Assembly: GCF_002258785.1 (NCBI RefSeq)
Contig: NZ_NOYI01000027.1
Span: 1-64,000, forward strand
Length of the DNA: 64,000 nt
Direction: 5' to 3'
Source: Rhodococcus sp. 06-235-1A
GTDB lineage: Bacteria; Actinomycetota; Actinomycetes; Mycobacteriales; Mycobacteriaceae
Program-made: the position numbers and the translations under genes
Part shown: in pieces, positions 17,823 to 64,000 of the stretch
How the letters are laid out: each line of letters starts with the position of its first letter
Numbering within the stretch: the stretch's first letter is position 1
The notes under the pieces: model-generated
The model's input: only the letters and a program-made list of their open reading frames with translations
Databases searched by the model: none
What the model was told of the DNA's origin: nothing

Positions 17823-19040
17823 TCAGACGACAGGACGAACCTTTCCTGCTGCCTCGCGTGCTCGGCTTCGTGCCGTCTCGATGTCCGACGCCGTCGACAC
17901 CGCGACGCCCATCCGACGCCTGACGAAGCTCGTCGGCTTGCCGAACAGGCGCAGGTCGGTCTCGGCAACCGCCAACGCATCGGCGACGCCTTCGAAGGAA
18001 ACGCCGTCCGCATCCACGCCGCCGTAGATCACCGCCGACGCACCGGGTGAGAGCAGCGCCGTGTCGATCGGCAGACCGAGCACGGCGCGGGCATGGAGCT
18101 CGAACTCCGAGAACCGTTGCGTACGAAGCGTTACCAGGCCGGTATCGTGTGGCCGCGGACTGACCTCGGAGAAATACACGTTGTCGCCCTGGACGAACAG
18201 CTCGACGCCGAACAATCCGCTCCCACCCAGTGCCGTCGTGATTCGCTCGGCAACATCGCGCGCACCGGCCAGGGCCGCGTCGGACATCGGTTGCGGCTGC
18301 CAGGATTCGACGTAGTCACCGGACTCCTGCAGGTGGCCGATCGGCTCGCAGAACGCTGTTCCATCCACCCCGCGCACAGTCAGAAGAGTTATCTCGTAAT
18401 CGAAATCGACGAATCCCTCGACGATGACACGGCCGAGATCGACGCGGCCACCCTTCAACGCGTACTCCCACGCGGCCTCGACATCGTCCTCGCTGCGCAC
18501 GACGGACTGCCCTTTGCCCGACGACGACATGACGGGCTTGATGACGGCAGGGAAACCAATGGTGGACAATGCTTCTCGAACCTGGCCCAGCGAATCGGCA
18601 AAGGCATAGGGCGACGTCGGCAGCCCGAGCTCCTCGGCAGCCAGACGCCTGATGCCCTCACGGTTCATCGTCAACTGCGTCGCCCGTGCCGTCGGAATGA
18701 TCACCGTCCGGCCCCTGGCTTCCACCTCGGCCAACGCGTCCGTCGCAATGGCCTCGATCTCCGGGACAACGAAGTCCGGCTGCTGCGAATCGATCAGCGC
18801 CAGAAGCTCTTCGGGGTTGCTCATGTCGATCGTGAATGCATGATGCGCCACCTGGTGGCCAGGGGCATTGTCGTAGCGATCGACGGCGATCACCTCGACG
18901 CCGAGGCGCTGGAACGCGATGATCACCTCTTTGCCCAGCTCACCCGAGCCGAGCAGCATCACCCGGGTCGCCCCTGGAGTGAGCGGAGTACCGATACGGA
19001 CGGGTTCTGGGGCAGTCACAGCCTTATTATCCACACCCAC
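17823..19040 (-). CDS. purT: formate-dependent phosphoribosylglycinamide formyltransferase
   Basis: A 405-residue ATP-grasp enzyme that makes formylglycinamide ribotide from GAR, formate and ATP in purine synthesis. Visible features are the N-terminal nucleotide fold [14 protein letters not shown], the ATP-grasp loop [25 protein letters not shown] and the metal-binding [15 protein letters not shown]. The start is taken as GTG 19040; a second GTG eight codons later is possible. The left arm of the large palindrome begins inside this gene at 18719, and its 5' part reappears at 63679-64000. Confidence 0.95.
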
Positions 19041-19115
19041 ATTACTTGGACGACCTAGTACAGGTTAGTCTCCTGTCACAATCGCAGCGCACAACGTCGG
19101 AACGAGGCAAATTAC

Positions 19116-20192
19116 GTGTCGAACACTGGTGGACCGCTCGCAGGGCTCCGCGTCGTCGAACTCGCAGGCATCGGGCCCGGCCCGCACGCCGCACTGCTCC
19201 TGGCCGACCTCGGCGCGGACGTCGTTCGCATCCAACGCGCCGGGCAGGTCTCTCCGCACGACCATCAACTGCGCAGTCGCACCATCGTCGAGGCGAACCT
19301 CAAGGACCCCGCCGACATCGAGAAGGTTCTCGGCCTCGTCGAGCGCGCCGACGTGCTGATCGAGGGATTCCGCCCCGGTGTCACCGAGCGACTCGGACTC
19401 GGACCCGACGACGCCTTGGCCCGCAACCCGCGCTTGGTCTACGGCCGCATGACCGGCTGGGGCCAGGAAGGCCCCTGGGCACAGACCGCAGGCCACGACA
19501 TCAACTACATCTCCGTCACCGGCGTCCTCAACGCCATCGGCCGTGCGGGAGAGCGCCCGGTGCCGCCGCTGAACATGGTCGGCGACTTCGGTGGCGGCTC
19601 GATGTTCCTCGTCTTCGGCATCATGGCGGCGCTCTACGAGCGACAGAACTCCGGGCAGGGCCAGGTGGTCGACGCGGCCATGGTCGACGGCACGGCCGCA
19701 CTCTCGCACATGATCTGGTCGTGGCGCGGAGTCGGAGCGTGGAGCGACGACCGCGGCACCAACCTGCTCGACACCGGCGCGCCGTTCTACGACACCTACG
19801 AGACCTCCGACGGCCAGTACATGGCAGTCGGCTCGCTCGAGCCGCAGTTCTACGCTCAGCTGCTCACCGGACTCGGCCTCTCCGATACGGATCTGCCATC
19901 GCAGATGGACAAGTCGCGTTGGCCGGAACTGCGCGAGAAGTTCACCTCGACATTCCTGTCGAAGACCCGCGACGAATGGGCCGCGATCTTCGACGGCACC
20001 GACGCCTGCGTATCGCCGGTCCTCACCTTCGCCGAAGCTCCGAACCACCCGCACATGAAGGATCGCGACTCACTCATCGACGTCGGCGGCGTCACGCAAC
20101 ACCGTCCGGCACCGCGATTCTCCCGCACCGAAAACGGAGTTCCGACGCCACCGCCGTCCACCGCCACCGACATCGCGTCGGTCTGGGTGTAA
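19116..20192 (+). CDS. mcr: CaiB/BaiF family, alpha-methylacyl-CoA racemase-like
   Basis: A 358-residue class III CoA-transferase fold protein. The three catalytic residues of the mycobacterial racemase MCR (His126, Asp156, Glu241) have equivalents one residue later: His127 in AGHDINY, Asp157 in [11 protein letters not shown] and Glu242 in SLEPQFY. This favours 2-methylacyl-CoA racemisation in branched-chain or sterol side-chain degradation over CoA transfer. The N-terminal CoA-binding region [13 protein letters not shown] is present. It is divergent from purT across 75 bases and is followed by the convergent MocR gene. Confidence 0.88.
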
Positions 20193-20203
20193 CCGCCTGC
20201 GCG

Positions 20204-21685
20204 TCAGAACACCAGAGCCGGCTGTTCCGATTCGGCGCTGGGGGCGAGTGCTCGGTACGCCCCGGCCGTTGCGGCGACAGCGGCCCGAAGCTCTTGCGGC
20301 TCACGGGTGTACGGCAACCTGAGATAGCGCTCGAACGCACCCTCGACGCCGAATCGCGGTCCTGCCGCCAGCACCGCTCCGAATGCCGGAGCGGTGGCGG
20401 CGAGTGCACTCGACACCGGTGCAGGCAGCTGCAACCACAGCGACATACCGCCCTCGGAGCGGCGATAGCGCCAGTCCGGAAGATGCTCGGCCAGAGCGTC
20501 CTCGAGTACGTCACGACGTTCACGCAGTTGCGATCGGCGGAGCTCGAGTGCGGGTTCGGCGTCCTGCAGCAAGAACGACGACGCCAACTGATCCATGATC
20601 GACGTGCCGAGGTCGTGCGCCGCCCGCGAACCTGCGAGCTGGGATACCAGCGACGGGTGCGCCCTGATCCACCCGATGCGCAGTCCGCCCCAGAACGACT
20701 TGGACGCCGAGCCGATCGTGACGATGTCGGAGCCCGAGACCCGTCCGAACGACGCGACCGGTGGTGGCGGCGGGGCGTCGAGCCACAGGTCCACCATCGT
20801 CTCGTCGACGATGAGCGTCATGCGAGTGTCACGGGTGATGCGCGCGAGTTCGGCCCGGCCCTCGGCGTCCAGCACCTGCCCGGTCGGATTGTGAAAGTCC
20901 GGAATCAGGTACGCGACCTTGGCGGCCGTTTGCCGTGCGGCACTGCGAATTCCGTCGAGATCCCAGTCGCCGTCCGCGGGACGAACCGGCACCGGCACCG
21001 GCCGCGCGCCGACGCGTCGGATGGCCTCGAGCGCGTTGGGATAGGTCGGGTGATCGATCAGCACCCGATCACCGGGTGACGTCAACGTGCCCAGCAAGAG
21101 CCGAACTGCTTGCTGCGCACCGGATGTGACCATGATCTGATCCGCGGTCGTCGGTAGGCCACGCTCGACGAATCGCTGCGCGATGGCCTCCCGCAACACC
21201 GCCAAGCCGATGGGCTCCATTCCGTGCGTCGGCAGGTACGTCGGAAGTGCTTGCAGTGCAGACTCGTACGCGGCCGTCATGGTTCCGTCGGCGGCCGACA
21301 TGGCAGCGTGAGACATGTCCACCACCGGACCCGACGTCGACGTCGACTGGATCAGCAGTCCGTTCGGGGTGGGGGCCGCAGGCAGCGCGACGGTACTGCG
21401 CGAACCCTGCTTGCTGATCAGATAGCCCTCGTCACGCAGCACCGAATAGGAGGAGGTGATGGTGGTGCGGCTCAAATCGAGTGCGGCCGACAGATCGCGC
21501 TCACTGGGCAGACCGACACCCAACGGAATCCGACCGTCGTGAATGAGGAGTCGAACGCCGTCCGCCAACGCGCGATACGTCGGACGCGACGCCTTGCGCC
21601 GGCCGGGTCCATCGGAGGAGGCGTCAGCGCGCCAGCTACCGAGATCGCGGGCCAGTGACGTTGCGTTGAGAACTCTCGAGGCCAT
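20204..21685 (-). CDS. MocR-type regulator (GntR winged helix fused to aminotransferase domain)
   Basis: A 493-residue two-domain protein. The N-terminal winged helix (about residues 30-100) includes LPSERDLSAALDLSRTTI and GYLISKQGSRS. The rest is a fold-type I aminotransferase domain with the PLP lysine in GSASKSFWGGLRIGW and the PLP-contacting DFHNPTGQ. MocR regulators sense PLP or amino-acid adducts. The ATG at 21685 has GGAG upstream, whereas the ATG eleven codons earlier has no clear ribosome site. ACTGG boxes in the gap to ogt suggest autoregulation. The regulated pathway is not evident from neighbours. Confidence 0.88.
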   Translation of the reverse strand: MASRVLNATSLARDLGSWRADASSDGPGRRKASRPTYRALADGVRLLIHDGRIPLGVGLPSERDLSAALDLSRTTITSSYSVLRDEGYLISKQGSRSTVALPAAPTPNGLLIQSTSTSGPVVDMSHAAMSAADGTMTAAYESALQALPTYLPTHGMEPIGLAVLREAIAQRFVERGLPTTADQIMVTSGAQQAVRLLLGTLTSPGDRVLIDHPTYPNALEAIRRVGARPVPVPVRPADGDWDLDGIRSAARQTAAKVAYLIPDFHNPTGQVLDAEGRAELARITRDTRMTLIVDETMVDLWLDAPPPPPVASFGRVSGSDIVTIGSASKSFWGGLRIGWIRAHPSLVSQLAGSRAAHDLGTSIMDQLASSFLLQDAEPALELRRSQLRERRDVLEDALAEHLPDWRYRRSEGGMSLWLQLPAPVSSALAATAPAFGAVLAAGPRFGVEGAFERYLRLPYTREPQELRAAVAATAGAYRALAPSAESEQPALVF

Positions 21686-21690
21686 GTTCT

Positions 21691-21774
21691 CCAGTATTGG
21701 CCCACTGGCATCGAACATTCAAGTCCATTCGGTCGTCTACTGGACTGCTCCCCGACCTCGGGTGGATACTGGAC
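21691..21774. promoter_or_regulatory. ACTGG boxes in the mocR-ogt gap, likely MocR site
   Basis: CCAGT at 21691 and ACTGG at 21704 form a dyad, and TACTGGAC is repeated directly at 21738 and 21767 (29 bases apart). MocR proteins often bind direct repeats near their own promoter. The boxes are seen; binding is inferred. Confidence 0.4.
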
Positions 21775-21776
21775 CC

Positions 21777-22301
21777 ATGCCGAGCTGCACGCTCTTCGAC
21801 ACCGCCATCGGTCGCTGCGGTATCGCCTGGACCGACGACGGAGTAGCCGCGGTTGCGCTGCCCGAACCGTCGGACGAGGCAATGATCGACTACCTGACCG
21901 GCTTCGGTGCGGCAGAAGGGCCGGTCGACGCACTGGCCGCCGATGCCATCGACCGGATCACCGGACTCCTCGACGGCCGTGCCGTCGACTTGAGGCCGAT
22001 ACCGCTGGTGCTCGACGTTTCGGAGTTCGATGCGTCGGTGTACACCGTGTGCAGCGACATCCCTCGGGGCGCGACACTCACCTACGGCGACATCGCTCGC
22101 AGACTCGGCCATCCCGGTGCGGCGCAAGCGGTCGGCGGTGCACTCGGCCGCAACCCGGTGCCGATCATCGTTCCGTGCCACCGTGTGCTCGGTGCAGGCA
22201 GCGAAGTCGGCGGCTTCTCCGCGCCGGGTGGAGCGAACACCAAACAACGAATTCTTGGCATAGAAGGCGTACCGGGATTCGACGAGCCCACATTGTTCTG
22301 A
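21777..22301 (+). CDS. ogt: methylated-DNA-protein cysteine methyltransferase
   Basis: A 174-residue DNA repair protein that removes methyl groups from O6-methylguanine by suicide transfer. The acceptor cysteine is in the invariant IVPCHRVLG (about residues 138-146), followed by GGFSAPGG and the helix-turn-helix region TYGDIARRLGHPGAAQAVGGALGRNP. The ATG at 21777 follows the ACTGG box. No Ada-type regulatory domain is present. It is divergent from the MocR gene and convergent with the LGFP gene. Confidence 0.93.
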   Translation: MPSCTLFDTAIGRCGIAWTDDGVAAVALPEPSDEAMIDYLTGFGAAEGPVDALAADAIDRITGLLDGRAVDLRPIPLVLDVSEFDASVYTVCSDIPRGATLTYGDIARRLGHPGAAQAVGGALGRNPVPIIVPCHRVLGAGSEVGGFSAPGGANTKQRILGIEGVPGFDEPTLF

Positions 22302-22310
22302 ATCAGAGCG

Positions 22311-22348
22311 CGGCGTTTATTCCGACCGTTCGACCGAATAAACCGCCG
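22311..22348. terminator. hairpin between ogt and the LGFP gene
   Basis: CGGCGTTTATTC and GAATAAACCGCCG pair with one bulged base in the convergent gap 22302-22371. The stem contains T and A runs that suit either direction. Likely a shared terminator. Confidence 0.55.
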
Positions 22349-22371
22349 AAAACAGGGAGCAGAATTGTATT

Positions 22372-22812
22372 TCAGGCCGAAATTCCCAGTTCGGAAATAG
22401 GACCGTCGACCGCCGAGACCGATACAGCTTCCGGACCGGGGCTGACATCCGATTCCTCGCCCCGACCACCGATGGTGAACGCACCCACATCGGGCAGCCA
22501 TCCGATGGCCCCGCGCTGGAAAAGGTTGTATCTGCCGGAGCCCGTCGGCGTCGGACGCTCGTTGCTGATCGGATAGCCAAGTGCCCCATAGGGTCCGCCG
22601 TGACCGAGGTACCAATCGAGTATGGGACCGTGCACCTCGTGCGCGCCACCTTCGGGAAGAGCGAACACAGTGGCATGGGTGAATTCGAGCATTCCGCCGC
22701 CCTCGGGACCGAGCATGAATTCACCGGCTTGAGCGCCGATCCAGGGATGTTCGTAAGTGAACCGATCGTATTGGTAGCTGAAAACTTCCAACCCGTTGTA
22801 ATTTTCGGTCAT
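22372..22812 (-). CDS. LGFP-repeat protein without signal peptide
   Basis: A 146-residue protein with one clear LGFP-type repeat (about residues 66-115): GPILDWYLGHGGPYGALGYP, then NERPTPTGSGRYNLFQRGAIGW. LGFP repeats are thought to bind the cell wall in mycolate-containing bacteria and usually sit behind a signal peptide or an esterase domain. Neither is seen here. The ATG has GGAGG about nine bases upstream. Base composition is somewhat lower in GC than the neighbours. Function unknown. Confidence 0.7.
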   Translation of the reverse strand: MTENYNGLEVFSYQYDRFTYEHPWIGAQAGEFMLGPEGGGMLEFTHATVFALPEGGAHEVHGPILDWYLGHGGPYGALGYPISNERPTPTGSGRYNLFQRGAIGWLPDVGAFTIGGRGEESDVSPGPEAVSVSAVDGPISELGISA

Positions 22813-22933
22813 CGCTGGAACCTCCGTCGCTTTACCTGAACCGATTATCCACGTCGGCGAGCAGATATGCAGCTCGATTCGGACATATATGTGGGATGCC
22901 GCAGAATTCGCTCTGTCTCGACCAGGCCTCACA

Positions 22934-22980
22934 CACATGCGAAAGCCCCGAGGCTGGACGCCTCGGGGCTTTCGCATGTG
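22934..22980. terminator. strong bidirectional terminator, 21-bp stem
   Basis: Perfect 21-base arms (CACATGCGAAAGCCCCGAGG plus C, and its complement) around a TGGAC loop. It stands between the purA stop at 23004 and the start region of the LGFP gene, both on the minus strand, so it ends purA transcription and insulates the next gene. Confidence 0.85.
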
Positions 22981-23003
22981 GCAAGTTGCGTACCGCAGAT
23001 TTC

Positions 23004-24356
<1,353 letters not shown>

Positions 24357-24494
24357 TCACCATTTGTCGCAGGCGCGACAGTGGCCGGGAGAACAGTCTA
24401 GCCGAGCCGGTGAGCTGGCCCGCATGCCGCTACGGTGGAGTCGAAACGAGGGCACTATGGTCGCCTGAGGGTTCGACGAAGATCTAGGAGCGCC

Positions 24495-25160
24495 GTGACA
24501 CCGTTCGTTCTGCACTGCGGGAACCCGCCGCTGCCGATCACGCTGACCGACGTCCCACTGCGCAGCGCCGACGCCGTACCGACCGACGACGACTGCAGCG
24601 GGATCTTCTCCGACATCGAATCGGTCCCTGCCCCCCGCATCATCGTCCTGGGCGACGATGCCTCCCTGGCCGCCGTGCTGACCCGACTGATGCGCACCGA
24701 CCGCCTGCACGTCGAACTCGCTTTCGTGCCCGACACGGCCACCGACGCAGCGCACATCTACAAACTCGGCACCGGATCACGCGCCGCGAAAGTGGCACTG
24801 ACAGGCTCGGCGTCGGGCACTCCCCTCATTCGCGACGACGCGGGCAAGGCGGTGGTCGGCCGGGCACTTCTCGGCGGGGCCGACGGAGCCGAACTCGAGG
24901 GCGAGGCCTACGTCGACGACACTCGCCTGTTCTCCGGCGTCGTACCCGGCGTCGAGGTGGCACCGACCGCGGAACTGCCCGGCCTTCGTGCGCGCGTGAT
25001 CAGCCGACGACGTCTTCTACCCCGCCGCTGGGTGAGCGGGCGCGCAATGCAACTCGGTTCCCCTGCCGCGAACCTGATGCGCGACGGCATCGCCGGCGAC
25101 CGAACGGTGAAGAGATCGACGTTCTACCGGCACCATCAGGAGTGGTTGCTGGTCCGATGA
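24495..25160 (+). CDS. conserved actinobacterial protein, Rv0358-like
   Basis: A 221-residue soluble protein with no catalytic motif that I recognise. It has an acidic N-terminal half, the segment APRIIVLGDDASLAAVLTRL, and a basic C-terminus (RRRLLPRRW, RHHQEWLLVR). The GTG at 24495 has AGGAG seven bases upstream; the longer in-frame ATG would begin in promoter sequence. Its identity is inferred from position: divergent from purA and overlapping an M50 protease gene, as for Rv0358 and Rv0359. The last residues overlap the protease start (ATGA). Confidence 0.7.
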   Translation: MTPFVLHCGNPPLPITLTDVPLRSADAVPTDDDCSGIFSDIESVPAPRIIVLGDDASLAAVLTRLMRTDRLHVELAFVPDTATDAAHIYKLGTGSRAAKVALTGSASGTPLIRDDAGKAVVGRALLGGADGAELEGEAYVDDTRLFSGVVPGVEVAPTAELPGLRARVISRRRLLPRRWVSGRAMQLGSPAANLMRDGIAGDRTVKRSTFYRHHQEWLLVR

Positions 25161-25930
25161 CCGTTCCCTTGCGTCGCAGTCCCGTCCTGCCGAGCCCGGT
25201 CTTCGTCGCCGTTCTCGCCGTCGCAGGAGTGGGCGGCGCAGTGGCGTGGACAGCCGAGGACGTCACGTCCACCGCTGCACGCCTCGGGGTGTTCGTTCTG
25301 GTACTGGCCGGCTGGATCGCCTCGGTGTGCCTGCACGAATTCGGTCACGCGTTCACCGCGTTTCGCGCCGGGGATCGCGAGGTCGAGCTCCGCGGCTACC
25401 TGACGCTCAACCCGCTGAAGTACACCCACCCGTTGCTCTCGATCGTCTTGCCGGTCGTATTCATCGCGATCGGCGGAATCGGACTGCCGGGCGGTGCCGT
25501 ATATCTGCGCACCGGCCAGTTCTCGGCATCGACGCAGCGGCGCATCGCCCTCGCCGGTCCGTTCGCCAATGCCGTTCTCGCCGTGTTACTTCTGATCGTC
25601 ATTCGCGTGTTCGGCACGGACGGGACCCATCAGGCCTTCTGGTACGGGCTCAGCTTCCTGGCCTTCCTGCAGATCATGGCCACGATCCTCAACCTGATTC
25701 CGGTGCCGGGACTCGACGGATACGCCGCACTCGAACCCTCGCTCTCGCCCGCCACCCGTGCATCGATGAACCAGTTCAAGGGCTACGGAATCCTCGTTCT
25801 CGTGGCATTGCTGTTCGTGCCGGCAGTCAATTCGGCATTCTTCGGGGCGATCTACACCCTCTTCGGATTGTCCGGTGTTCCCGAGTTCTTCGCCGGCAAC
25901 GGTAACTTCCTGATGCGATTCTGGCTGTGA
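25157..25930 (+). CDS. M50-family membrane metalloprotease (Rv0359-like)
   Basis: A 257-residue polytopic membrane protein of the site-2 protease class. The zinc motif HEFGH is in SVCLHEFGHAFTAF (about residues 59-72), and the second metal motif is NLIPVPGLDGYAAL. About six membrane segments are visible. Such short forms lack PDZ domains and may cleave membrane-bound anti-sigma factors or other substrates. Translation is coupled to the upstream Rv0358-like gene. It is convergent with the WYL regulator gene with one base between stops. Confidence 0.88.
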   Translation: MTVPLRRSPVLPSPVFVAVLAVAGVGGAVAWTAEDVTSTAARLGVFVLVLAGWIASVCLHEFGHAFTAFRAGDREVELRGYLTLNPLKYTHPLLSIVLPVVFIAIGGIGLPGGAVYLRTGQFSASTQRRIALAGPFANAVLAVLLLIVIRVFGTDGTHQAFWYGLSFLAFLQIMATILNLIPVPGLDGYAALEPSLSPATRASMNQFKGYGILVLVALLFVPAVNSAFFGAIYTLFGLSGVPEFFAGNGNFLMRFWL

Positions 25931-25931
25931 C

Positions 25932-26873
25932 TCAACTGTTCTCGCTCACGATGCTCGCCGCGACATCACGCAGCGATCGTCGCAGCGAAGCCGGCCCCAG
26001 CACACTGACTCCCCCGCCGAGCGCGATCAGCTGAGCGAGTGCGACCTCCTCGCTCTCGAGCATCAACTCCACCTCGGTCCAGCCGTCACTGTCGGCCGTG
26101 CCCAGATCCGGCGTGGCCGCGACTCCGATCACCCGAGGCAGGGCACGCACTGCGTTGTCGGACAATCGGACTCGACAGGGGAACCTCAGCAACGACCGAT
26201 CGAACTCCACCATCGACGCATCCCACCACTGCGCGAGGTCGAACCCGACCGGCCGAAGCACGTCGGTAGCCTGCTCCACCACGCTCTCGATCCGGTCGAC
26301 CCGAAACGACAGGATGCGCGCACCGCGAGTGGCCACCAAGTACCAGACCGACGCCTTCACCACCAGGCCGAGTGGCCCGACGACCCGGCTCCCCCCGCGG
26401 TAACGGATCTCGATCTCCCGACCACCGAGCACCGTCCGCGCCAAGACGGGCACCAACTCGTTCGCAACGGGCGCGGTGAACCAACCGGGAACATCGACGT
26501 GCACACGCTCACGCCACAGCTGCGCGCTCGCCCGGAGCGAGACCGGCAGCGCGCCGAGGAGCTTGCTCTCGGCAGCGGCGGTGGCGTCGGACAAGCCGAG
26601 GTCGGCCGCAACCGACGGCATACCGAGCAGCATCAGCGCCGACGTTTCGGTACCGGTCATGCCGGTCAGTTTCGACTGCCACCCGTCGAGCAATCGGATG
26701 CCGCCGCCGGGGCCGGGTTCGGTCCACAGCGGCACGCCCGCGGCCCCGAGCGCGCCGATGTCGCGGTAGATCGTGCGTACCGATACCTCGACCTCGTCCG
26801 CAAGGGACTGCGCGGTCGCCTGTCGCCCCTCTTGGAGCAACAACATGATCCGAAGCAACCGTGCGGAACGCAT
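25932..26873 (-). CDS. WYL-domain helix-turn-helix regulator
   Basis: A 313-residue regulator of the YafY/DeoR-HTH plus WYL class. The N-terminal HTH (residues 1-60) contains ATAQSLADEVEVSVRTIYRD, and the WYL motif is in VKASVWYLVATRGARILSFRVDRIES. WYL domains bind small ligands or nucleic acids and control nearby genes. The ATG at 26873 starts right at the HTH. It is divergent from a PPOX-family gene, with an inverted repeat in the 53-base gap that it could bind. Confidence 0.9.
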   Translation of the reverse strand: MRSARLLRIMLLLQEGRQATAQSLADEVEVSVRTIYRDIGALGAAGVPLWTEPGPGGGIRLLDGWQSKLTGMTGTETSALMLLGMPSVAADLGLSDATAAAESKLLGALPVSLRASAQLWRERVHVDVPGWFTAPVANELVPVLARTVLGGREIEIRYRGGSRVVGPLGLVVKASVWYLVATRGARILSFRVDRIESVVEQATDVLRPVGFDLAQWWDASMVEFDRSLLRFPCRVRLSDNAVRALPRVIGVAATPDLGTADSDGWTEVELMLESEEVALAQLIALGGGVSVLGPASLRRSLRDVAASIVSENS

Positions 26874-26885
26874 CTGCCCGATATT

Positions 26886-26904
26886 ACTGACACACGATGT
26901 CAGT
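26886..26904. promoter_or_regulatory. operator candidate between WYL regulator and PPOX gene
   Basis: Arms ACTGACA and TGTCAGT are separated by CACGA, 13 bases upstream of the regulator ATG. The repeat covers a possible upstream ATG (26897) of the PPOX gene, which favours the later start at 26927. Likely bound by the adjacent WYL regulator. Confidence 0.55.
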
Positions 26905-26926
26905 GATGGGGGTCGATACTCGCAAC

Positions 26927-27394
26927 ATGACGACGTGGAAAGACTTCTCGACAACCGCCCCGAACCTCGCATCGGCCGTACAGGCCAGATTCACCGCTCA
27001 CAAACACCATGTGCTCGCGACGCTCCGCGCGGACGGCTCACCGCGGGTGAGCGGCACCGAGGTCGAGTTCGACGACAGTGGCGTCCTGCGCCTCGGTTCG
27101 ATGCTCGGTGCCGTCAAGGCACGGGATCTGCAGCGCGACGGACGATTCGCGCTGCACAGCAATCCAGGGCATCACTCGATGGAGGGCGGGGATGCGAAGA
27201 TCGGCGGTCGAGCCGTCGAAATCACCGATCCGGCTGCGCTGCAACCGATATTCGACGCTGCACCGGGCGAACTGGTGCCGTATCACGTGTTCGATCTCGA
27301 CATCACCGAGGTCGTCCTGACGTCACTGGTGGACGATCACATGCAGATCGACGTGTGGCGTCCGGGCTTCGAGATACGCACGGTCACCAGGTGA
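26927..27394 (+). CDS. pyridoxamine 5'-phosphate oxidase-family protein
   Basis: A 155-residue split-barrel flavin-binding protein. Family features include HVLATLRADGSPRVSGTEV at the N-terminal strands and LGSMLGAVKARDLQRDGRFAL for cofactor contact. It may use FMN or F420; the sequence does not settle this. The ATG at 26927 is preferred because an upstream ATG lies in the probable operator. It is divergent from a WYL regulator, which usually controls its neighbour. The last 11 bases overlap the end of the CDF gene on the other strand. Confidence 0.82.
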   Translation: MTTWKDFSTTAPNLASAVQARFTAHKHHVLATLRADGSPRVSGTEVEFDDSGVLRLGSMLGAVKARDLQRDGRFALHSNPGHHSMEGGDAKIGGRAVEITDPAALQPIFDAAPGELVPYHVFDLDITEVVLTSLVDDHMQIDVWRPGFEIRTVTR

Positions 27395-28313
27395 GCTCTT
27401 CCTTGCAGGTCCGGCCGTGCGCGGTCGGTTCGACCTGAACCGTGGCGTGGTCGAGGCCGTAGGTGGACAACAGAGATCTGGCCCGGTCGAGCACCATCGA
27501 CGACGACCCATCGCATTCGAGATGCACAGTGGCCACGTCCATTCCGGTGGTCAGCGTCCACACGTGCAGGTCGTGCACCCCCGTCACCCCCGGTAGCGCC
27601 GTCAGGTCGCCGGTCAACGCATCGACGTCGACGTGCCCTGGACTCGCCTGAGTGAGAATGCGCAGAGCCGAGCCGGCGAGCTTGATTGCGCGCGGGATCA
27701 CCCACAGGGAGATCAGGACACCGACGACGATGTCGGCCCAGGTCCACTGAAACACGACCATCAGAACGCCTGCGACGAGCACCCCGACACTGCCGACTGC
27801 GTCGGCCAGAACTTCCATGTAGGCACCGCGCACTGCCAGGGAGTCCTTGGCATCGGCGCGAATGAGCAGCATGACGACGACATTGGCCGCGAGACCGGCT
27901 GTCGCAGTGAGGATGAGCGGTACGCCGGGGATTTCGGGAGCATCGCCGATGCGAGAGACCGCCTCGTACATGATGAACGCCGCGACACCCAGCAGTAGAA
28001 CTGCATTCGCGATGGCAGTGAGCACCTCGGCCCGGTGCCAACCGAAAGTCCTTGCCGCGGCGGCACTTCCCTTGCGGGCCAGCAGAAGCGCGACCAACCC
28101 CATGGACATGCCGAGCACGTCGGTGAGCATGTGGCCTGCATCGGCGAGCAGACCGAGCGAACCGATGGCCACGGCCACGGTGGCCTCGACGACGAGGAAC
28201 ACCACCAGAATCGCCAACGCCACGACCATCTTGCGAATGCGGGCCTTGGGCGGCCCCACACCTGTGGACGAGTGACCGCCCACCCCGTGACTGTGCCCGT
28301 GACCCGCGCCCAT
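27384..28313 (-). CDS. cation diffusion facilitator, zinc/cobalt/cadmium exporter
   Basis: A 309-residue CDF protein. It has a His-rich cytoplasmic N-terminus (HGHSHGVGGHSS), six membrane helices, and a C-terminal metal-sensing domain (GVHDLHVWTLTTGMDVATVHL). The helix-2 metal site is HMLTD in LADAGHMLTD. In helix 5 the corresponding motif reads EVLAD, with glutamate where many zinc CDFs have histidine. It exports divalent metal in exchange for protons. A perfect 10-bp inverted repeat 40 bases upstream is a candidate metal-responsive operator. No ArsR/SmtB gene is adjacent. Confidence 0.92.
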   Translation of the reverse strand: MGAGHGHSHGVGGHSSTGVGPPKARIRKMVVALAILVVFLVVEATVAVAIGSLGLLADAGHMLTDVLGMSMGLVALLLARKGSAAAARTFGWHRAEVLTAIANAVLLLGVAAFIMYEAVSRIGDAPEIPGVPLILTATAGLAANVVVMLLIRADAKDSLAVRGAYMEVLADAVGSVGVLVAGVLMVVFQWTWADIVVGVLISLWVIPRAIKLAGSALRILTQASPGHVDVDALTGDLTALPGVTGVHDLHVWTLTTGMDVATVHLECDGSSSMVLDRARSLLSTYGLDHATVQVEPTAHGRTCKEELTW

Positions 28314-28352
28314 GACTCCCCCTCGCTACCGATACCGACTTCCGGGAGTCAC

Positions 28353-51704: not shown

Positions 51705-51708
51705 AGCG

Positions 51709-54324: not shown

Positions 54325-54344
54325 CCTGAGCGCACACCATTGCA

Positions 54345-54366
54345 CATATGCGTATGTACGCATATG
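54345..54366. promoter_or_regulatory. 10-bp inverted repeat upstream of the CDF gene (mirror copy)
   Basis: CATATGCGTA/TACGCATATG with a 2-base spacer, 40 bases before the second CDF copy; same as 28353-28374. Confidence 0.63.
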
Positions 54367-54405
54367 GTGACTCCCGGAAGTCGGTATCGGTAGCGAGGGG
54401 GAGTC

Positions 54406-55335
54406 ATGGGCGCGGGTCACGGGCACAGTCACGGGGTGGGCGGTCACTCGTCCACAGGTGTGGGGCCGCCCAAGGCCCGCATTCGCAAGATGGTCGTGGC
54501 GTTGGCGATTCTGGTGGTGTTCCTCGTCGTCGAGGCCACCGTGGCCGTGGCCATCGGTTCGCTCGGTCTGCTCGCCGATGCAGGCCACATGCTCACCGAC
54601 GTGCTCGGCATGTCCATGGGGTTGGTCGCGCTTCTGCTGGCCCGCAAGGGAAGTGCCGCCGCGGCAAGGACTTTCGGTTGGCACCGGGCCGAGGTGCTCA
54701 CTGCCATCGCGAATGCAGTTCTACTGCTGGGTGTCGCGGCGTTCATCATGTACGAGGCGGTCTCTCGCATCGGCGATGCTCCCGAAATCCCCGGCGTACC
54801 GCTCATCCTCACTGCGACAGCCGGTCTCGCGGCCAATGTCGTCGTCATGCTGCTCATTCGCGCCGATGCCAAGGACTCCCTGGCAGTGCGCGGTGCCTAC
54901 ATGGAAGTTCTGGCCGACGCAGTCGGCAGTGTCGGGGTGCTCGTCGCAGGCGTTCTGATGGTCGTGTTTCAGTGGACCTGGGCCGACATCGTCGTCGGTG
55001 TCCTGATCTCCCTGTGGGTGATCCCGCGCGCAATCAAGCTCGCCGGCTCGGCTCTGCGCATTCTCACTCAGGCGAGTCCAGGGCACGTCGACGTCGATGC
55101 GTTGACCGGCGACCTGACGGCGCTACCGGGGGTGACGGGGGTGCACGACCTGCACGTGTGGACGCTGACCACCGGAATGGACGTGGCCACTGTGCATCTC
55201 GAATGCGATGGGTCGTCGTCGATGGTGCTCGACCGGGCCAGATCTCTGTTGTCCACCTACGGCCTCGACCACGCCACGGTTCAGGTCGAACCGACCGCGC
55301 ACGGCCGGACCTGCAAGGAAGAGCTCACCTGGTGA
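54406..55335 (+). CDS. cation diffusion facilitator (mirror copy)
   Basis: A 309-residue metal exporter identical to that at 27384-28313, with the His-rich head and the HMLTD and EVLAD metal-site motifs. Confidence 0.9.
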   Translation: MGAGHGHSHGVGGHSSTGVGPPKARIRKMVVALAILVVFLVVEATVAVAIGSLGLLADAGHMLTDVLGMSMGLVALLLARKGSAAAARTFGWHRAEVLTAIANAVLLLGVAAFIMYEAVSRIGDAPEIPGVPLILTATAGLAANVVVMLLIRADAKDSLAVRGAYMEVLADAVGSVGVLVAGVLMVVFQWTWADIVVGVLISLWVIPRAIKLAGSALRILTQASPGHVDVDALTGDLTALPGVTGVHDLHVWTLTTGMDVATVHLECDGSSSMVLDRARSLLSTYGLDHATVQVEPTAHGRTCKEELTW

Positions 55336-55792
55336 CCGTGCGTATCTCGAAGCCCGGACGCCACACGTCGATCTGCATGTGATCGTCCACCAGTGACGTC
55401 AGGACGACCTCGGTGATGTCGAGATCGAACACGTGATACGGCACCAGTTCGCCCGGTGCAGCGTCGAATATCGGTTGCAGCGCAGCCGGATCGGTGATTT
55501 CGACGGCTCGACCGCCGATCTTCGCATCCCCGCCCTCCATCGAGTGATGCCCTGGATTGCTGTGCAGCGCGAATCGTCCGTCGCGCTGCAGATCCCGTGC
55601 CTTGACGGCACCGAGCATCGAACCGAGGCGCAGGACGCCACTGTCGTCGAACTCGACCTCGGTGCCGCTCACCCGCGGTGAGCCGTCCGCGCGGAGCGTC
55701 GCGAGCACATGGTGTTTGTGAGCGGTGAATCTGGCCTGTACGGCCGATGCGAGGTTCGGGGCGGTTGTCGAGAAGTCTTTCCACGTCGTCAT
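55325..55792 (-). CDS. pyridoxamine 5'-phosphate oxidase-family protein (mirror copy)
   Basis: A 155-residue split-barrel protein identical to that at 26927-27394. It overlaps the CDF end by 11 bases. Confidence 0.8.
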   Translation of the reverse strand: MTTWKDFSTTAPNLASAVQARFTAHKHHVLATLRADGSPRVSGTEVEFDDSGVLRLGSMLGAVKARDLQRDGRFALHSNPGHHSMEGGDAKIGGRAVEITDPAALQPIFDAAPGELVPYHVFDLDITEVVLTSLVDDHMQIDVWRPGFEIRTVTR

Positions 55793-55814
55793 GTTGCGAG
55801 TATCGACCCCCATC

Positions 55815-55833
55815 ACTGACATCGTGTGTCAGT
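55815..55833. promoter_or_regulatory. operator candidate between PPOX and WYL genes (mirror copy)
   Basis: ACTGACA/TGTCAGT dyad, mirror of 26886-26904. Confidence 0.53.
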
Positions 55834-55845
55834 AATATCGGGCAG

Positions 55846-56787
55846 ATGCGTTCCGCACGGTTGCTTCGGATCATGTTGTTGCTCCAAGAGGGGCGACAGG
55901 CGACCGCGCAGTCCCTTGCGGACGAGGTCGAGGTATCGGTACGCACGATCTACCGCGACATCGGCGCGCTCGGGGCCGCGGGCGTGCCGCTGTGGACCGA
56001 ACCCGGCCCCGGCGGCGGCATCCGATTGCTCGACGGGTGGCAGTCGAAACTGACCGGCATGACCGGTACCGAAACGTCGGCGCTGATGCTGCTCGGTATG
56101 CCGTCGGTTGCGGCCGACCTCGGCTTGTCCGACGCCACCGCCGCTGCCGAGAGCAAGCTCCTCGGCGCGCTGCCGGTCTCGCTCCGGGCGAGCGCGCAGC
56201 TGTGGCGTGAGCGTGTGCACGTCGATGTTCCCGGTTGGTTCACCGCGCCCGTTGCGAACGAGTTGGTGCCCGTCTTGGCGCGGACGGTGCTCGGTGGTCG
56301 GGAGATCGAGATCCGTTACCGCGGGGGGAGCCGGGTCGTCGGGCCACTCGGCCTGGTGGTGAAGGCGTCGGTCTGGTACTTGGTGGCCACTCGCGGTGCG
56401 CGCATCCTGTCGTTTCGGGTCGACCGGATCGAGAGCGTGGTGGAGCAGGCTACCGACGTGCTTCGGCCGGTCGGGTTCGACCTCGCGCAGTGGTGGGATG
56501 CGTCGATGGTGGAGTTCGATCGGTCGTTGCTGAGGTTCCCCTGTCGAGTCCGATTGTCCGACAACGCAGTGCGTGCCCTGCCTCGGGTGATCGGAGTCGC
56601 GGCCACGCCGGATCTGGGCACGGCCGACAGTGACGGCTGGACCGAGGTGGAGTTGATGCTCGAGAGCGAGGAGGTCGCACTCGCTCAGCTGATCGCGCTC
56701 GGCGGGGGAGTCAGTGTGCTGGGGCCGGCTTCGCTGCGACGATCGCTGCGTGATGTCGCGGCGAGCATCGTGAGCGAGAACAGTTGA
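55846..56787 (+). CDS. WYL-domain regulator (mirror copy)
   Basis: A 313-residue HTH-WYL protein identical to that at 25932-26873, starting at ATG 55846. Confidence 0.88.
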   Translation: MRSARLLRIMLLLQEGRQATAQSLADEVEVSVRTIYRDIGALGAAGVPLWTEPGPGGGIRLLDGWQSKLTGMTGTETSALMLLGMPSVAADLGLSDATAAAESKLLGALPVSLRASAQLWRERVHVDVPGWFTAPVANELVPVLARTVLGGREIEIRYRGGSRVVGPLGLVVKASVWYLVATRGARILSFRVDRIESVVEQATDVLRPVGFDLAQWWDASMVEFDRSLLRFPCRVRLSDNAVRALPRVIGVAATPDLGTADSDGWTEVELMLESEEVALAQLIALGGGVSVLGPASLRRSLRDVAASIVSENS

Positions 56788-56788
56788 G

Positions 56789-57562
56789 TCACAGCCAGAA
56801 TCGCATCAGGAAGTTACCGTTGCCGGCGAAGAACTCGGGAACACCGGACAATCCGAAGAGGGTGTAGATCGCCCCGAAGAATGCCGAATTGACTGCCGGC
56901 ACGAACAGCAATGCCACGAGAACGAGGATTCCGTAGCCCTTGAACTGGTTCATCGATGCACGGGTGGCGGGCGAGAGCGAGGGTTCGAGTGCGGCGTATC
57001 CGTCGAGTCCCGGCACCGGAATCAGGTTGAGGATCGTGGCCATGATCTGCAGGAAGGCCAGGAAGCTGAGCCCGTACCAGAAGGCCTGATGGGTCCCGTC
57101 CGTGCCGAACACGCGAATGACGATCAGAAGTAACACGGCGAGAACGGCATTGGCGAACGGACCGGCGAGGGCGATGCGCCGCTGCGTCGATGCCGAGAAC
57201 TGGCCGGTGCGCAGATATACGGCACCGCCCGGCAGTCCGATTCCGCCGATCGCGATGAATACGACCGGCAAGACGATCGAGAGCAACGGGTGGGTGTACT
57301 TCAGCGGGTTGAGCGTCAGGTAGCCGCGGAGCTCGACCTCGCGATCCCCGGCGCGAAACGCGGTGAACGCGTGACCGAATTCGTGCAGGCACACCGAGGC
57401 GATCCAGCCGGCCAGTACCAGAACGAACACCCCGAGGCGTGCAGCGGTGGACGTGACGTCCTCGGCTGTCCACGCCACTGCGCCGCCCACTCCTGCGACG
57501 GCGAGAACGGCGACGAAGACCGGGCTCGGCAGGACGGGACTGCGACGCAAGGGAACGGTCAT
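56789..57562 (-). CDS. M50-family membrane metalloprotease (mirror copy)
   Basis: A 257-residue site-2-type protease identical to that at 25157-25930 (HEFGH and PVPGLDG motifs). Confidence 0.86.
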   Translation of the reverse strand: MTVPLRRSPVLPSPVFVAVLAVAGVGGAVAWTAEDVTSTAARLGVFVLVLAGWIASVCLHEFGHAFTAFRAGDREVELRGYLTLNPLKYTHPLLSIVLPVVFIAIGGIGLPGGAVYLRTGQFSASTQRRIALAGPFANAVLAVLLLIVIRVFGTDGTHQAFWYGLSFLAFLQIMATILNLIPVPGLDGYAALEPSLSPATRASMNQFKGYGILVLVALLFVPAVNSAFFGAIYTLFGLSGVPEFFAGNGNFLMRFWL

Positions 57563-58224
57563 CGGACCAGCAACCACTCCTGATGGTGCCGGTAGAACGT
57601 CGATCTCTTCACCGTTCGGTCGCCGGCGATGCCGTCGCGCATCAGGTTCGCGGCAGGGGAACCGAGTTGCATTGCGCGCCCGCTCACCCAGCGGCGGGGT
57701 AGAAGACGTCGTCGGCTGATCACGCGCGCACGAAGGCCGGGCAGTTCCGCGGTCGGTGCCACCTCGACGCCGGGTACGACGCCGGAGAACAGGCGAGTGT
57801 CGTCGACGTAGGCCTCGCCCTCGAGTTCGGCTCCGTCGGCCCCGCCGAGAAGTGCCCGGCCGACCACCGCCTTGCCCGCGTCGTCGCGAATGAGGGGAGT
57901 GCCCGACGCCGAGCCTGTCAGTGCCACTTTCGCGGCGCGTGATCCGGTGCCGAGTTTGTAGATGTGCGCTGCGTCGGTGGCCGTGTCGGGCACGAAAGCG
58001 AGTTCGACGTGCAGGCGGTCGGTGCGCATCAGTCGGGTCAGCACGGCGGCCAGGGAGGCATCGTCGCCCAGGACGATGATGCGGGGGGCAGGGACCGATT
58101 CGATGTCGGAGAAGATCCCGCTGCAGTCGTCGTCGGTCGGTACGGCGTCGGCGCTGCGCAGTGGGACGTCGGTCAGCGTGATCGGCAGCGGCGGGTTCCC
58201 GCAGTGCAGAACGAACGGTGTCAC
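57559..58224 (-). CDS. Rv0358-like conserved protein (mirror copy)
   Basis: A 221-residue protein identical to that at 24495-25160, with GTG start at 58224 and ATGA overlap with the protease gene. Confidence 0.68.
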   Translation of the reverse strand: MTPFVLHCGNPPLPITLTDVPLRSADAVPTDDDCSGIFSDIESVPAPRIIVLGDDASLAAVLTRLMRTDRLHVELAFVPDTATDAAHIYKLGTGSRAAKVALTGSASGTPLIRDDAGKAVVGRALLGGADGAELEGEAYVDDTRLFSGVVPGVEVAPTAELPGLRARVISRRRLLPRRWVSGRAMQLGSPAANLMRDGIAGDRTVKRSTFYRHHQEWLLVR

Positions 58225-58362
58225 GGCGCTCCTAGATCTTCGTCGAACCCTCAGGCGACCATAGTGCCCTCGTTTCGACTCCACCGTAGCGGCATGCGGG
58301 CCAGCTCACCGGCTCGGCTAGACTGTTCTCCCGGCCACTGTCGCGCCTGCGACAAATGGTGA

Positions 58363-59715
<1,353 letters not shown>

Positions 59716-59738
59716 GAAATCTGCGGTACGCAACTTGC

Positions 59739-59785
59739 CACATGCGAAAGCCCCGAGGCGTCCAGCCTCGGGGCTTTCGCATGTG
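59739..59785. terminator. 21-bp stem terminator after purA (mirror copy)
   Basis: Same perfect stem as at 22934-22980, here downstream of the second purA copy. Confidence 0.83.
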
Positions 59786-59906
59786 TGTGAGGCCTGGTCG
59801 AGACAGAGCGAATTCTGCGGCATCCCACATATATGTCCGAATCGAGCTGCATATCTGCTCGCCGACGTGGATAATCGGTTCAGGTAAAGCGACGGAGGTT
59901 CCAGCG

Positions 59907-60347
59907 ATGACCGAAAATTACAACGGGTTGGAAGTTTTCAGCTACCAATACGATCGGTTCACTTACGAACATCCCTGGATCGGCGCTCAAGCCGGTGAAT
60001 TCATGCTCGGTCCCGAGGGCGGCGGAATGCTCGAATTCACCCATGCCACTGTGTTCGCTCTTCCCGAAGGTGGCGCGCACGAGGTGCACGGTCCCATACT
60101 CGATTGGTACCTCGGTCACGGCGGACCCTATGGGGCACTTGGCTATCCGATCAGCAACGAGCGTCCGACGCCGACGGGCTCCGGCAGATACAACCTTTTC
60201 CAGCGCGGGGCCATCGGATGGCTGCCCGATGTGGGTGCGTTCACCATCGGTGGTCGGGGCGAGGAATCGGATGTCAGCCCCGGTCCGGAAGCTGTATCGG
60301 TCTCGGCGGTCGACGGTCCTATTTCCGAACTGGGAATTTCGGCCTGA
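59907..60347 (+). CDS. LGFP-repeat protein (mirror copy)
   Basis: A 146-residue protein identical to that at 22372-22812; ATG behind GGAGG. Confidence 0.68.
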   Translation: MTENYNGLEVFSYQYDRFTYEHPWIGAQAGEFMLGPEGGGMLEFTHATVFALPEGGAHEVHGPILDWYLGHGGPYGALGYPISNERPTPTGSGRYNLFQRGAIGWLPDVGAFTIGGRGEESDVSPGPEAVSVSAVDGPISELGISA

Positions 60348-60370
60348 AATACAATTCTGCTCCCTGTTTT

Positions 60371-60408
60371 CGGCGGTTTATTCGGTCGAACGGTCGGAAT
60401 AAACGCCG
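60371..60408. terminator. hairpin between the LGFP gene and ogt (mirror copy)
   Basis: Mirror of the bulged stem at 22311-22348 in the convergent gap. Confidence 0.53.
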
Positions 60409-60417
60409 CGCTCTGAT

Positions 60418-60942
60418 TCAGAACAATGTGGGCTCGTCGAATCCCGGTACGCCTTCTATGCCAAGAATTCGTTGTTTGGTGTTCGCTCCACCCGGCGCGG
60501 AGAAGCCGCCGACTTCGCTGCCTGCACCGAGCACACGGTGGCACGGAACGATGATCGGCACCGGGTTGCGGCCGAGTGCACCGCCGACCGCTTGCGCCGC
60601 ACCGGGATGGCCGAGTCTGCGAGCGATGTCGCCGTAGGTGAGTGTCGCGCCCCGAGGGATGTCGCTGCACACGGTGTACACCGACGCATCGAACTCCGAA
60701 ACGTCGAGCACCAGCGGTATCGGCCTCAAGTCGACGGCACGGCCGTCGAGGAGTCCGGTGATCCGGTCGATGGCATCGGCGGCCAGTGCGTCGACCGGCC
60801 CTTCTGCCGCACCGAAGCCGGTCAGGTAGTCGATCATTGCCTCGTCCGACGGTTCGGGCAGCGCAACCGCGGCTACTCCGTCGTCGGTCCAGGCGATACC
60901 GCAGCGACCGATGGCGGTGTCGAAGAGCGTGCAGCTCGGCAT
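60418..60942 (-). CDS. ogt: methylated-DNA-protein cysteine methyltransferase (mirror copy)
   Basis: A 174-residue repair protein identical to that at 21777-22301, acceptor cysteine in PCHRV. Confidence 0.91.
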   Translation of the reverse strand: MPSCTLFDTAIGRCGIAWTDDGVAAVALPEPSDEAMIDYLTGFGAAEGPVDALAADAIDRITGLLDGRAVDLRPIPLVLDVSEFDASVYTVCSDIPRGATLTYGDIARRLGHPGAAQAVGGALGRNPVPIIVPCHRVLGAGSEVGGFSAPGGANTKQRILGIEGVPGFDEPTLF

Positions 60943-60944
60943 GG

Positions 60945-61028
60945 GTCCAGTATCCACCCGAGGTCGGGGAGCAGTCCAGTAGACGACCGAATGGACTTGA
61001 ATGTTCGATGCCAGTGGGCCAATACTGG
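60945..61028. promoter_or_regulatory. ACTGG boxes in the ogt-mocR gap (mirror copy)
   Basis: Mirror of 21691-21774, with the same dyad and direct repeats. Confidence 0.38.
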
Positions 61029-61033
61029 AGAAC

Positions 61034-62515
61034 ATGGCCTCGAGAGTTCTCAACGCAACGTCACTGGCCCGCGATCTCGGTAGCTGGCGCGCTGACGCCT
61101 CCTCCGATGGACCCGGCCGGCGCAAGGCGTCGCGTCCGACGTATCGCGCGTTGGCGGACGGCGTTCGACTCCTCATTCACGACGGTCGGATTCCGTTGGG
61201 TGTCGGTCTGCCCAGTGAGCGCGATCTGTCGGCCGCACTCGATTTGAGCCGCACCACCATCACCTCCTCCTATTCGGTGCTGCGTGACGAGGGCTATCTG
61301 ATCAGCAAGCAGGGTTCGCGCAGTACCGTCGCGCTGCCTGCGGCCCCCACCCCGAACGGACTGCTGATCCAGTCGACGTCGACGTCGGGTCCGGTGGTGG
61401 ACATGTCTCACGCTGCCATGTCGGCCGCCGACGGAACCATGACGGCCGCGTACGAGTCTGCACTGCAAGCACTTCCGACGTACCTGCCGACGCACGGAAT
61501 GGAGCCCATCGGCTTGGCGGTGTTGCGGGAGGCCATCGCGCAGCGATTCGTCGAGCGTGGCCTACCGACGACCGCGGATCAGATCATGGTCACATCCGGT
61601 GCGCAGCAAGCAGTTCGGCTCTTGCTGGGCACGTTGACGTCACCCGGTGATCGGGTGCTGATCGATCACCCGACCTATCCCAACGCGCTCGAGGCCATCC
61701 GACGCGTCGGCGCGCGGCCGGTGCCGGTGCCGGTTCGTCCCGCGGACGGCGACTGGGATCTCGACGGAATTCGCAGTGCCGCACGGCAAACGGCCGCCAA
61801 GGTCGCGTACCTGATTCCGGACTTTCACAATCCGACCGGGCAGGTGCTGGACGCCGAGGGCCGGGCCGAACTCGCGCGCATCACCCGTGACACTCGCATG
61901 ACGCTCATCGTCGACGAGACGATGGTGGACCTGTGGCTCGACGCCCCGCCGCCACCACCGGTCGCGTCGTTCGGACGGGTCTCGGGCTCCGACATCGTCA
62001 CGATCGGCTCGGCGTCCAAGTCGTTCTGGGGCGGACTGCGCATCGGGTGGATCAGGGCGCACCCGTCGCTGGTATCCCAGCTCGCAGGTTCGCGGGCGGC
62101 GCACGACCTCGGCACGTCGATCATGGATCAGTTGGCGTCGTCGTTCTTGCTGCAGGACGCCGAACCCGCACTCGAGCTCCGCCGATCGCAACTGCGTGAA
62201 CGTCGTGACGTACTCGAGGACGCTCTGGCCGAGCATCTTCCGGACTGGCGCTATCGCCGCTCCGAGGGCGGTATGTCGCTGTGGTTGCAGCTGCCTGCAC
62301 CGGTGTCGAGTGCACTCGCCGCCACCGCTCCGGCATTCGGAGCGGTGCTGGCGGCAGGACCGCGATTCGGCGTCGAGGGTGCGTTCGAGCGCTATCTCAG
62401 GTTGCCGTACACCCGTGAGCCGCAAGAGCTTCGGGCCGCTGTCGCCGCAACGGCCGGGGCGTACCGAGCACTCGCCCCCAGCGCCGAATCGGAACAGCCG
62501 GCTCTGGTGTTCTGA
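61034..62515 (+). CDS. MocR-type regulator (mirror copy)
   Basis: A 493-residue GntR-aminotransferase fusion identical to that at 20204-21685, ATG 61034 behind GGAG. Confidence 0.86.
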   Translation: MASRVLNATSLARDLGSWRADASSDGPGRRKASRPTYRALADGVRLLIHDGRIPLGVGLPSERDLSAALDLSRTTITSSYSVLRDEGYLISKQGSRSTVALPAAPTPNGLLIQSTSTSGPVVDMSHAAMSAADGTMTAAYESALQALPTYLPTHGMEPIGLAVLREAIAQRFVERGLPTTADQIMVTSGAQQAVRLLLGTLTSPGDRVLIDHPTYPNALEAIRRVGARPVPVPVRPADGDWDLDGIRSAARQTAAKVAYLIPDFHNPTGQVLDAEGRAELARITRDTRMTLIVDETMVDLWLDAPPPPPVASFGRVSGSDIVTIGSASKSFWGGLRIGWIRAHPSLVSQLAGSRAAHDLGTSIMDQLASSFLLQDAEPALELRRSQLRERRDVLEDALAEHLPDWRYRRSEGGMSLWLQLPAPVSSALAATAPAFGAVLAAGPRFGVEGAFERYLRLPYTREPQELRAAVAATAGAYRALAPSAESEQPALVF

Positions 62516-62526
62516 CGCGCAGGCGG

Positions 62527-63603
62527 TTACACCCAGACCGACGCGATGTCGGTGGCGGTGGACGGCGGTGGCGTCGGAACTCCGTTTTCGGTGCGGGAGA
62601 ATCGCGGTGCCGGACGGTGTTGCGTGACGCCGCCGACGTCGATGAGTGAGTCGCGATCCTTCATGTGCGGGTGGTTCGGAGCTTCGGCGAAGGTGAGGAC
62701 CGGCGATACGCAGGCGTCGGTGCCGTCGAAGATCGCGGCCCATTCGTCGCGGGTCTTCGACAGGAATGTCGAGGTGAACTTCTCGCGCAGTTCCGGCCAA
62801 CGCGACTTGTCCATCTGCGATGGCAGATCCGTATCGGAGAGGCCGAGTCCGGTGAGCAGCTGAGCGTAGAACTGCGGCTCGAGCGAGCCGACTGCCATGT
62901 ACTGGCCGTCGGAGGTCTCGTAGGTGTCGTAGAACGGCGCGCCGGTGTCGAGCAGGTTGGTGCCGCGGTCGTCGCTCCACGCTCCGACTCCGCGCCACGA
63001 CCAGATCATGTGCGAGAGTGCGGCCGTGCCGTCGACCATGGCCGCGTCGACCACCTGGCCCTGCCCGGAGTTCTGTCGCTCGTAGAGCGCCGCCATGATG
63101 CCGAAGACGAGGAACATCGAGCCGCCACCGAAGTCGCCGACCATGTTCAGCGGCGGCACCGGGCGCTCTCCCGCACGGCCGATGGCGTTGAGGACGCCGG
63201 TGACGGAGATGTAGTTGATGTCGTGGCCTGCGGTCTGTGCCCAGGGGCCTTCCTGGCCCCAGCCGGTCATGCGGCCGTAGACCAAGCGCGGGTTGCGGGC
63301 CAAGGCGTCGTCGGGTCCGAGTCCGAGTCGCTCGGTGACACCGGGGCGGAATCCCTCGATCAGCACGTCGGCGCGCTCGACGAGGCCGAGAACCTTCTCG
63401 ATGTCGGCGGGGTCCTTGAGGTTCGCCTCGACGATGGTGCGACTGCGCAGTTGATGGTCGTGCGGAGAGACCTGCCCGGCGCGTTGGATGCGAACGACGT
63501 CCGCGCCGAGGTCGGCCAGGAGCAGTGCGGCGTGCGGGCCGGGCCCGATGCCTGCGAGTTCGACGACGCGGAGCCCTGCGAGCGGTCCACCAGTGTTCGA
63601 CAC
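62527..63603 (-). CDS. mcr: alpha-methylacyl-CoA racemase-like protein (mirror copy)
   Basis: A 358-residue CaiB-family protein identical to that at 19116-20192, with the His127/Asp157/Glu242 set. Confidence 0.86.
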
Positions 63604-63678
63604 GTAATTTGCCTCGTTCCGACGTTGTGCGCTGCGATTGTGACAGGAGACTAACCTGTACTAGGTCGTCCAAGTAAT

Positions 63679-64000
63679 GTGGGTGTGGATAATAAGGCTG
63701 TGACTGCCCCAGAACCCGTCCGTATCGGTACTCCGCTCACTCCAGGGGCGACCCGGGTGATGCTGCTCGGCTCGGGTGAGCTGGGCAAAGAGGTGATCAT
63801 CGCGTTCCAGCGCCTCGGCGTCGAGGTGATCGCCGTCGATCGCTACGACAATGCCCCTGGCCACCAGGTGGCGCATCATGCATTCACGATCGACATGAGC
63901 AACCCCGAAGAGCTTCTGGCGCTGATCGATTCGCAGCAGCCGGACTTCGTTGTCCCGGAGATCGAGGCCATTGCGACGGACGCGTTGGCCGAGGTGGAAG
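63679..64000 (+). CDS. purT: purT, 5' part (mirror copy, cut by the window edge)
   Basis: The first 107 codons of the formyltransferase at 17823-19040 in reverse orientation, including the nucleotide fold [14 protein letters not shown]. The frame is open at the last base of the window, so nothing shows whether the copy is complete. Confidence 0.93.

Follow-up and report, generated by a model that had tools for sequence, protein, structure and literature searches.

The window analysed here comprises bases 1–64000 of contig C1 (605,643 bases) from a Rhodococcus genome that has been assembled into 37 contigs with a total of 6,095,245 bases. Two inverted copies of one long segment meet within the window. 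At their meeting point lies the start of a gene for an alanine-rich protein, adjoined by an MFS transporter gene. The outer end of the segment, beyond the window at 82.7 kb of C1, falls in a DUF222 gene (PF02720), of which C1 opens with a truncated mirror copy. The coordinates of all features are listed in Table 1.

Table 1. Features of the inverted segment at the start of contig C1 (positions 1–64000 are those of the window).
Feature	Position	Strand	Remarks
Left arm	1..41359	.	Reverse-complement copy of C1:41360-82718, read as spurious; 0 mismatches; reproduced by the toy graph at K=99
Terminal 99-mer of C1	1..99	.	Reverse complement of C1:82620-82718; first 99 bases of the 164-base repeat; branching node at K=99
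Truncated mirror copy, 3' end of DUF222 gene	1..163	+	Complete copy at C1:82556-84331 (-), PF02720, E 1.5e-65
Mirror of the 264-aa chimeric ORF	40845..41639	-	Not a gene
Mirror copy of the gene fragment	41080..41359	+	From palindrome symmetry and own-genome search
Chimeric ORF of 264 aa spanning the axis	41080..41874	+	Gene fragment running into its own antisense; not a gene
Axis	41359..41360	.	Within an alanine codon run; C31 base 1, read as the true continuation, a few tens of bases off
Gene start of 93 codons, cut by the axis	41360..41639	-	Continues at C31:2-1471
Right arm, read as the genuine copy	41360..64000, continuing to C1:82718 and the remainder of the contig	.	Collinear with four relatives
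MFS transporter gene adjoining the axis, genuine arm	41913..43139	-	PF07690, E 1.3e-41; mirror copy 39580-40806 (+)

Within the window, each position x in the range 18719–41359 is complementary to position 82719-x, with 0 mismatches in 22,641 pairs. A preliminary description of this DNA had reported a perfect, spacerless palindrome of at least 45 kb, and the deposited sequence truly holds it. The coordinates given at that time were limited solely by the window edge. With the following stretches of C1 added, the palindrome runs on past position 64000 to C1:82718, free of mismatches and without a spacer, and consists of two arms of 41,359 bases each (82,718 bases in total) around an axis at 41359/41360. 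The left arm opens at base 1 of C1; positions from 82719 onward have no partner because the contig begins at the mirror position. The length of the palindrome rules out a chance origin. Two queries, one of 201 bases across the axis and one of 2,041 bases from the inner end of the right arm, matched the genome at the two mirror places only, a uniqueness that refers to the axis and the inner arm end. A perfect palindrome of 83 kb that lacks any spacer would be extraordinary if it were real.

The arm also carries several smaller repeats. A 74-bp near-palindrome (window 15572–15643; genuine copy C1:67076–67147) is 86% identical to its own reverse complement and belongs to a dispersed family with at least 56 matches in the genome, corresponding to about 40 distinct places when mirror copies are counted once (40 of 62 candidates scored). 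This family is a small palindromic repeat of this Rhodococcus. A 95-bp repeat with 88.5% identity occurs at window 5187–5280 (genuine copy C1:77439–77532) and at C1:86177–86271, its sole two genuine places in the genome. A 47-bp inverted repeat forms a hairpin at window 22934–22980 (mirror 59739–59785), and window 7742–7809 holds two 35-bp units in tandem.

The gene cut at the axis is read from the right arm toward the axis. Its product is alanine-rich, with a start that resembles a signal peptide as judged by eye. The central bases of the axis are alanine codons, which are self-complementary in the contig. Neither this gene nor the 264-residue chimeric ORF across the axis matched a Pfam family. 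Proteins like the one cut at the axis were found in seven records, all named Rhodococcus or Rhodococcoides. In relatives the gene comprises at least 600 codons, the frame being open through all 600 codons read in six named records. Five relatives show no stop codon between this start and the end of the compared stretch (563–595 codons).

The missing part of this gene was located by searching the own genome with a 589-residue query from a relative's protein. Residues 1–99 matched at both mirror copies, in a match that overshoots the axis by 26 bases of mirror sequence. Residues 100–589 matched at C31:2–1471 without a stop codon, so that the gene continues at the first bases of another contig. 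Since the first 300 bases of C31 occur at a single place in the genome, the start of this contig is a dead end rather than a branch at a repeat; a repeat at the C31 start was rejected on the same single-copy result. Some bases of the alanine run are absent between the arm tip and C31, and the closest record (L106, 87–89% identity) has 34 bases at this position. The G+C content reaches 78% in the final 60 bases of the arm and 80% in the initial 30 bases of C31. Such a GC-rich alanine run is plausibly a place where short-read coverage is easily lost.

The arrangement in related genomes agrees with this continuation. The arm tip has a match of some kind in 16 of 20 other genomes. In all four relatives compared over 80 kb (G010, G012, G008 and G004) the start of C31 lies beside the C1 arm in the expected orientation. 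Collinearity is unbroken through 82.7 kb in three of them; in G004 it breaks after 81.4 kb and resumes at 86.6 kb. The same order at the axis is found in all seven named records, in L108 with a wider unmatched gap. These four relatives and seven named records, three of the latter being G012, G008 and G011, represent nine different genomes, a count that leaves out G002, G009, G003, G005 and G006. G012, G008 and G011 share the genus with the source genome. In the relatives the place homologous to the axis is internal to the contigs, one of which is 3.07 Mb long. The four 80-kb stretches hold no second, inverted copy of the arm, and their longest inverted self-matches measure 80, 48, 37 and 56 bp. 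The neighbourhood is not universal in the genus: about 60 kb in G009 and about 4 kb in G002 separate the MFS match from the piece that resembles the start of the gene, and at the G009 locus the last 500 bases of the arm had no match within the 1.5-kb flank.

A length difference was observed elsewhere in the arm. Window 59715–59826 spans about 0.1 kb here and 4.3–5.0 kb in G010, G012 and G008, with a similar surplus in G004. A segment has probably been lost at this position in the present genome.

The outer end of the palindrome is set by a repeat between two contigs. The DUF222 gene at 82.7 kb has a 94%-identical stretch on contig C32, and the maximal exact match between both is 164 bases long (C1:82620–82783 = C32:72208–72371). 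The left arm stops at the mirror of position 82718, exactly 99 bases into this match. A terminal exact repeat of exactly 99 bases is present at 31 of the 61 readable contig ends, the left tip of C1 included (74 tips in all, of which 13 ending in N were dropped before counting). For the other 30 readable ends, 27 showed no terminal match in the stretches compared, two had one of 247 bases and one had one of 22 bases. A de Bruijn graph characteristically leaves contig ends that have exactly K bases in common, and 99 is a customary K value of the SPAdes program. The pattern of contig ends points to a de Bruijn graph assembly with K=99, and we infer from it that short reads were used. Because the outer end of the palindrome is a K=99 node like 30 other contig ends, it is no biological boundary.

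Two further observations concern these sequences. Exact tracts of 164, 144 and 223 bases shared by the two DUF222 genes (C1:82556–84331 and C32:72.1–74.0 kb) are interspersed with diverged sequence. Such a mosaic suggests gene conversion within the family. Six contigs of 658–1,716 bases (C4, C7, C9, C11, C30 and C36) read as N throughout, and C26 and C29 do so in part.

We then built a toy de Bruijn graph from C1:41360–100000, the first 20 kb of C31, C32:70001–76000 and one 300-base fold-back read of the axis taken from the window. At K=99 this graph contained a single unbranched path from 1 to 82718, which is exactly the observed palindrome. At other values of K the ends of the path were displaced, to 45/82674 (K=55), 23/82696 (K=77) and -27/82746 (K=127). 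When the fold-back read was left out, the path ended at 41360. As the graph at K=99 yields both ends of the palindrome, a single spurious junction at the axis accounts for both; the graph reproduces the extent of the palindrome and not the source of the junction.

On this evidence the palindrome is almost certainly a fold-back artefact of de Bruijn assembly, in which the start of C1 was folded back onto itself. Bases 1–41359 are very probably a spurious copy and not a chromosomal feature. The artefact most probably arose as follows. An assembler with a node length of 99, presumably a SPAdes-like program supplied with short reads, hit a dead end at the very GC-rich alanine codon run, and the link from the arm tip to its true continuation on C31 was lost there. 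The unitig was then joined to its own reverse complement via a self-complementary edge. This yielded a self-complementary unitig of 82,718 bases, leading from the nearest branching 99-mer, at the edge of the 164-base repeat, to the fold and back to the same 99-mer. On one side, path extension crossed the repeat and went on into the remainder of C1; the other side halted at the branch and became base 1 of the contig.

The seed of such a join may have been a fold-back (hairpin) read from the library or, at a smaller K, a short self-complementary k-mer that was then carried upward. A natural palindrome as the sole seed was rejected, since the alanine tract in six named relatives contains perfect palindromes of 6–8 bp only, which are too short alone. 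Because 6–8 bp do not suffice for a self-complementary 100-mer, the latter must have come from a chimeric read, from a longer palindrome among the unread bases or from joining at a smaller K. The event is single in this assembly among the 32 stretches scanned, none of which contained an inverted self-match of at least 150 bp. The scan began with 39 stretches. Each of the other 36 contigs contributed its first 20 kb or its full length, and the final 45.6 kb of C1 was divided into three. Seven stretches with more than 30% N were dropped, and the right ends of 23 large contigs were covered over 2 kb only.

A real inverted duplication, present in all or some of the cells, is the strongest of the other explanations. 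It might be a tandem inversion duplication with the order arm, inverted arm, arm, C31, of which one junction was assembled. Bacterial inversion duplications can have head-to-head junctions at short palindromes, and an array of this kind would keep C31 beside one copy of the arm, so the adjacency of C31 alone is not exclusive to an artefact. The graph would also look alike at the axis and halt at the same node, behind which a longer duplication could hide. As a real duplication could leave C31 by an arm copy and stop at this very node, the artefact reading falls short of certainty. A duplication, however, needs a second junction at its outer end, and there we find the K=99 node that also terminates 30 other contig ends. 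Moreover, it would have to persist with zero differences over 41 kb and no spacer, and perfect spacerless long palindromes are very unstable in bacteria. The relatives are single-copy for the arm. We consider a real duplication very unlikely on these grounds. The narrower proposition, that the head-to-head junction at the alanine-codon palindrome exists in some or all cells and was merely extended by the assembler to the next node, appears just as improbable.

The preliminary description had ranked an artefact above a real inverted duplication, with a misassembled contig end among the causes, and this part is borne out by our analysis. The cause it had named first, a fold-back chimera in long reads, fits poorly. 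Such a chimera, formed through a missed hairpin adapter or by template switching and then built into the contig, does give perfect spacerless palindromes at contig ends. One report describes palindromic long reads after whole-genome amplification (PMC6218980), and another describes inverted-repeat chimeras from nanopore ligation libraries (PMC13141652). In this assembly, however, the contig ends (31 of 61) bear the K=99 signature of de Bruijn assembly, and the left arm stops at a graph node and not at a random read end; only by coincidence would such a read end lie exactly 99 bases into an exact repeat. A long-read origin is therefore highly improbable, more so than a real duplication. Least probable of all, and rejected, is a covalently closed hairpin telomere of a linear replicon at the axis: reading round one by the assembler would yield a spacerless palindrome, but the axis lies inside a coding gene that continues on C31, the homologous place is internal to the relatives' contigs, and a search for the telomere resolvase (PF16684) that was positive in one of 14 control genomes found none in the own genome, stretches of N aside.

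Under the preferred reading of a fold-back artefact, the assembly is inflated by 41,359 bases (0.7% of 6,095,245). The genes within bases 1–41359 are counted double, each pair with 100% identity. One gene is broken between two contigs, and the axis is crossed by two nonsense ORFs. Bases 1–41359, the gene copies they contain and both chimeric ORFs across the axis should be disregarded. The case is also of use for quality control. A fold-back at a contig tip that ends exactly K bases inside a repeat, together with a missing neighbour at the tip of another contig, would flag this error in public genomes without access to the reads.

Palindromic contigs, that is fold-back or self-complementary unitigs, are a generally known artefact of de Bruijn assemblies; a literature search for this artefact by name found no paper naming it. 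The present case shares with it the perfect, spacerless palindrome at a contig tip with arms that end at a branching k-mer, and the missing neighbour at the tip of another contig (C31:2). It differs in the unusual length of the arms (41 kb), which arises because the next branching k-mer is that distant. With bacterial tandem inversion duplications it has in common the head-to-head junction and a normal flank that is retained elsewhere. Those duplications, however, have two biological junctions, whereas the outer end here is an assembler node. A third comparison concerns library preparation, during which short natural palindromes or inverted repeats have been described to give rise to fold-back reads (PMC10908179, PMC3946424). 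These reports deal with human tumour and historic fish DNA and describe the chimeras read by read, whereas here we see the resulting contig alone. The likeness lies in the junction itself: a read that switches to its own reverse complement within self-complementary sequence, as in those libraries (PMC10908179, PMC3946424), would provide the join needed at the axis of C1.
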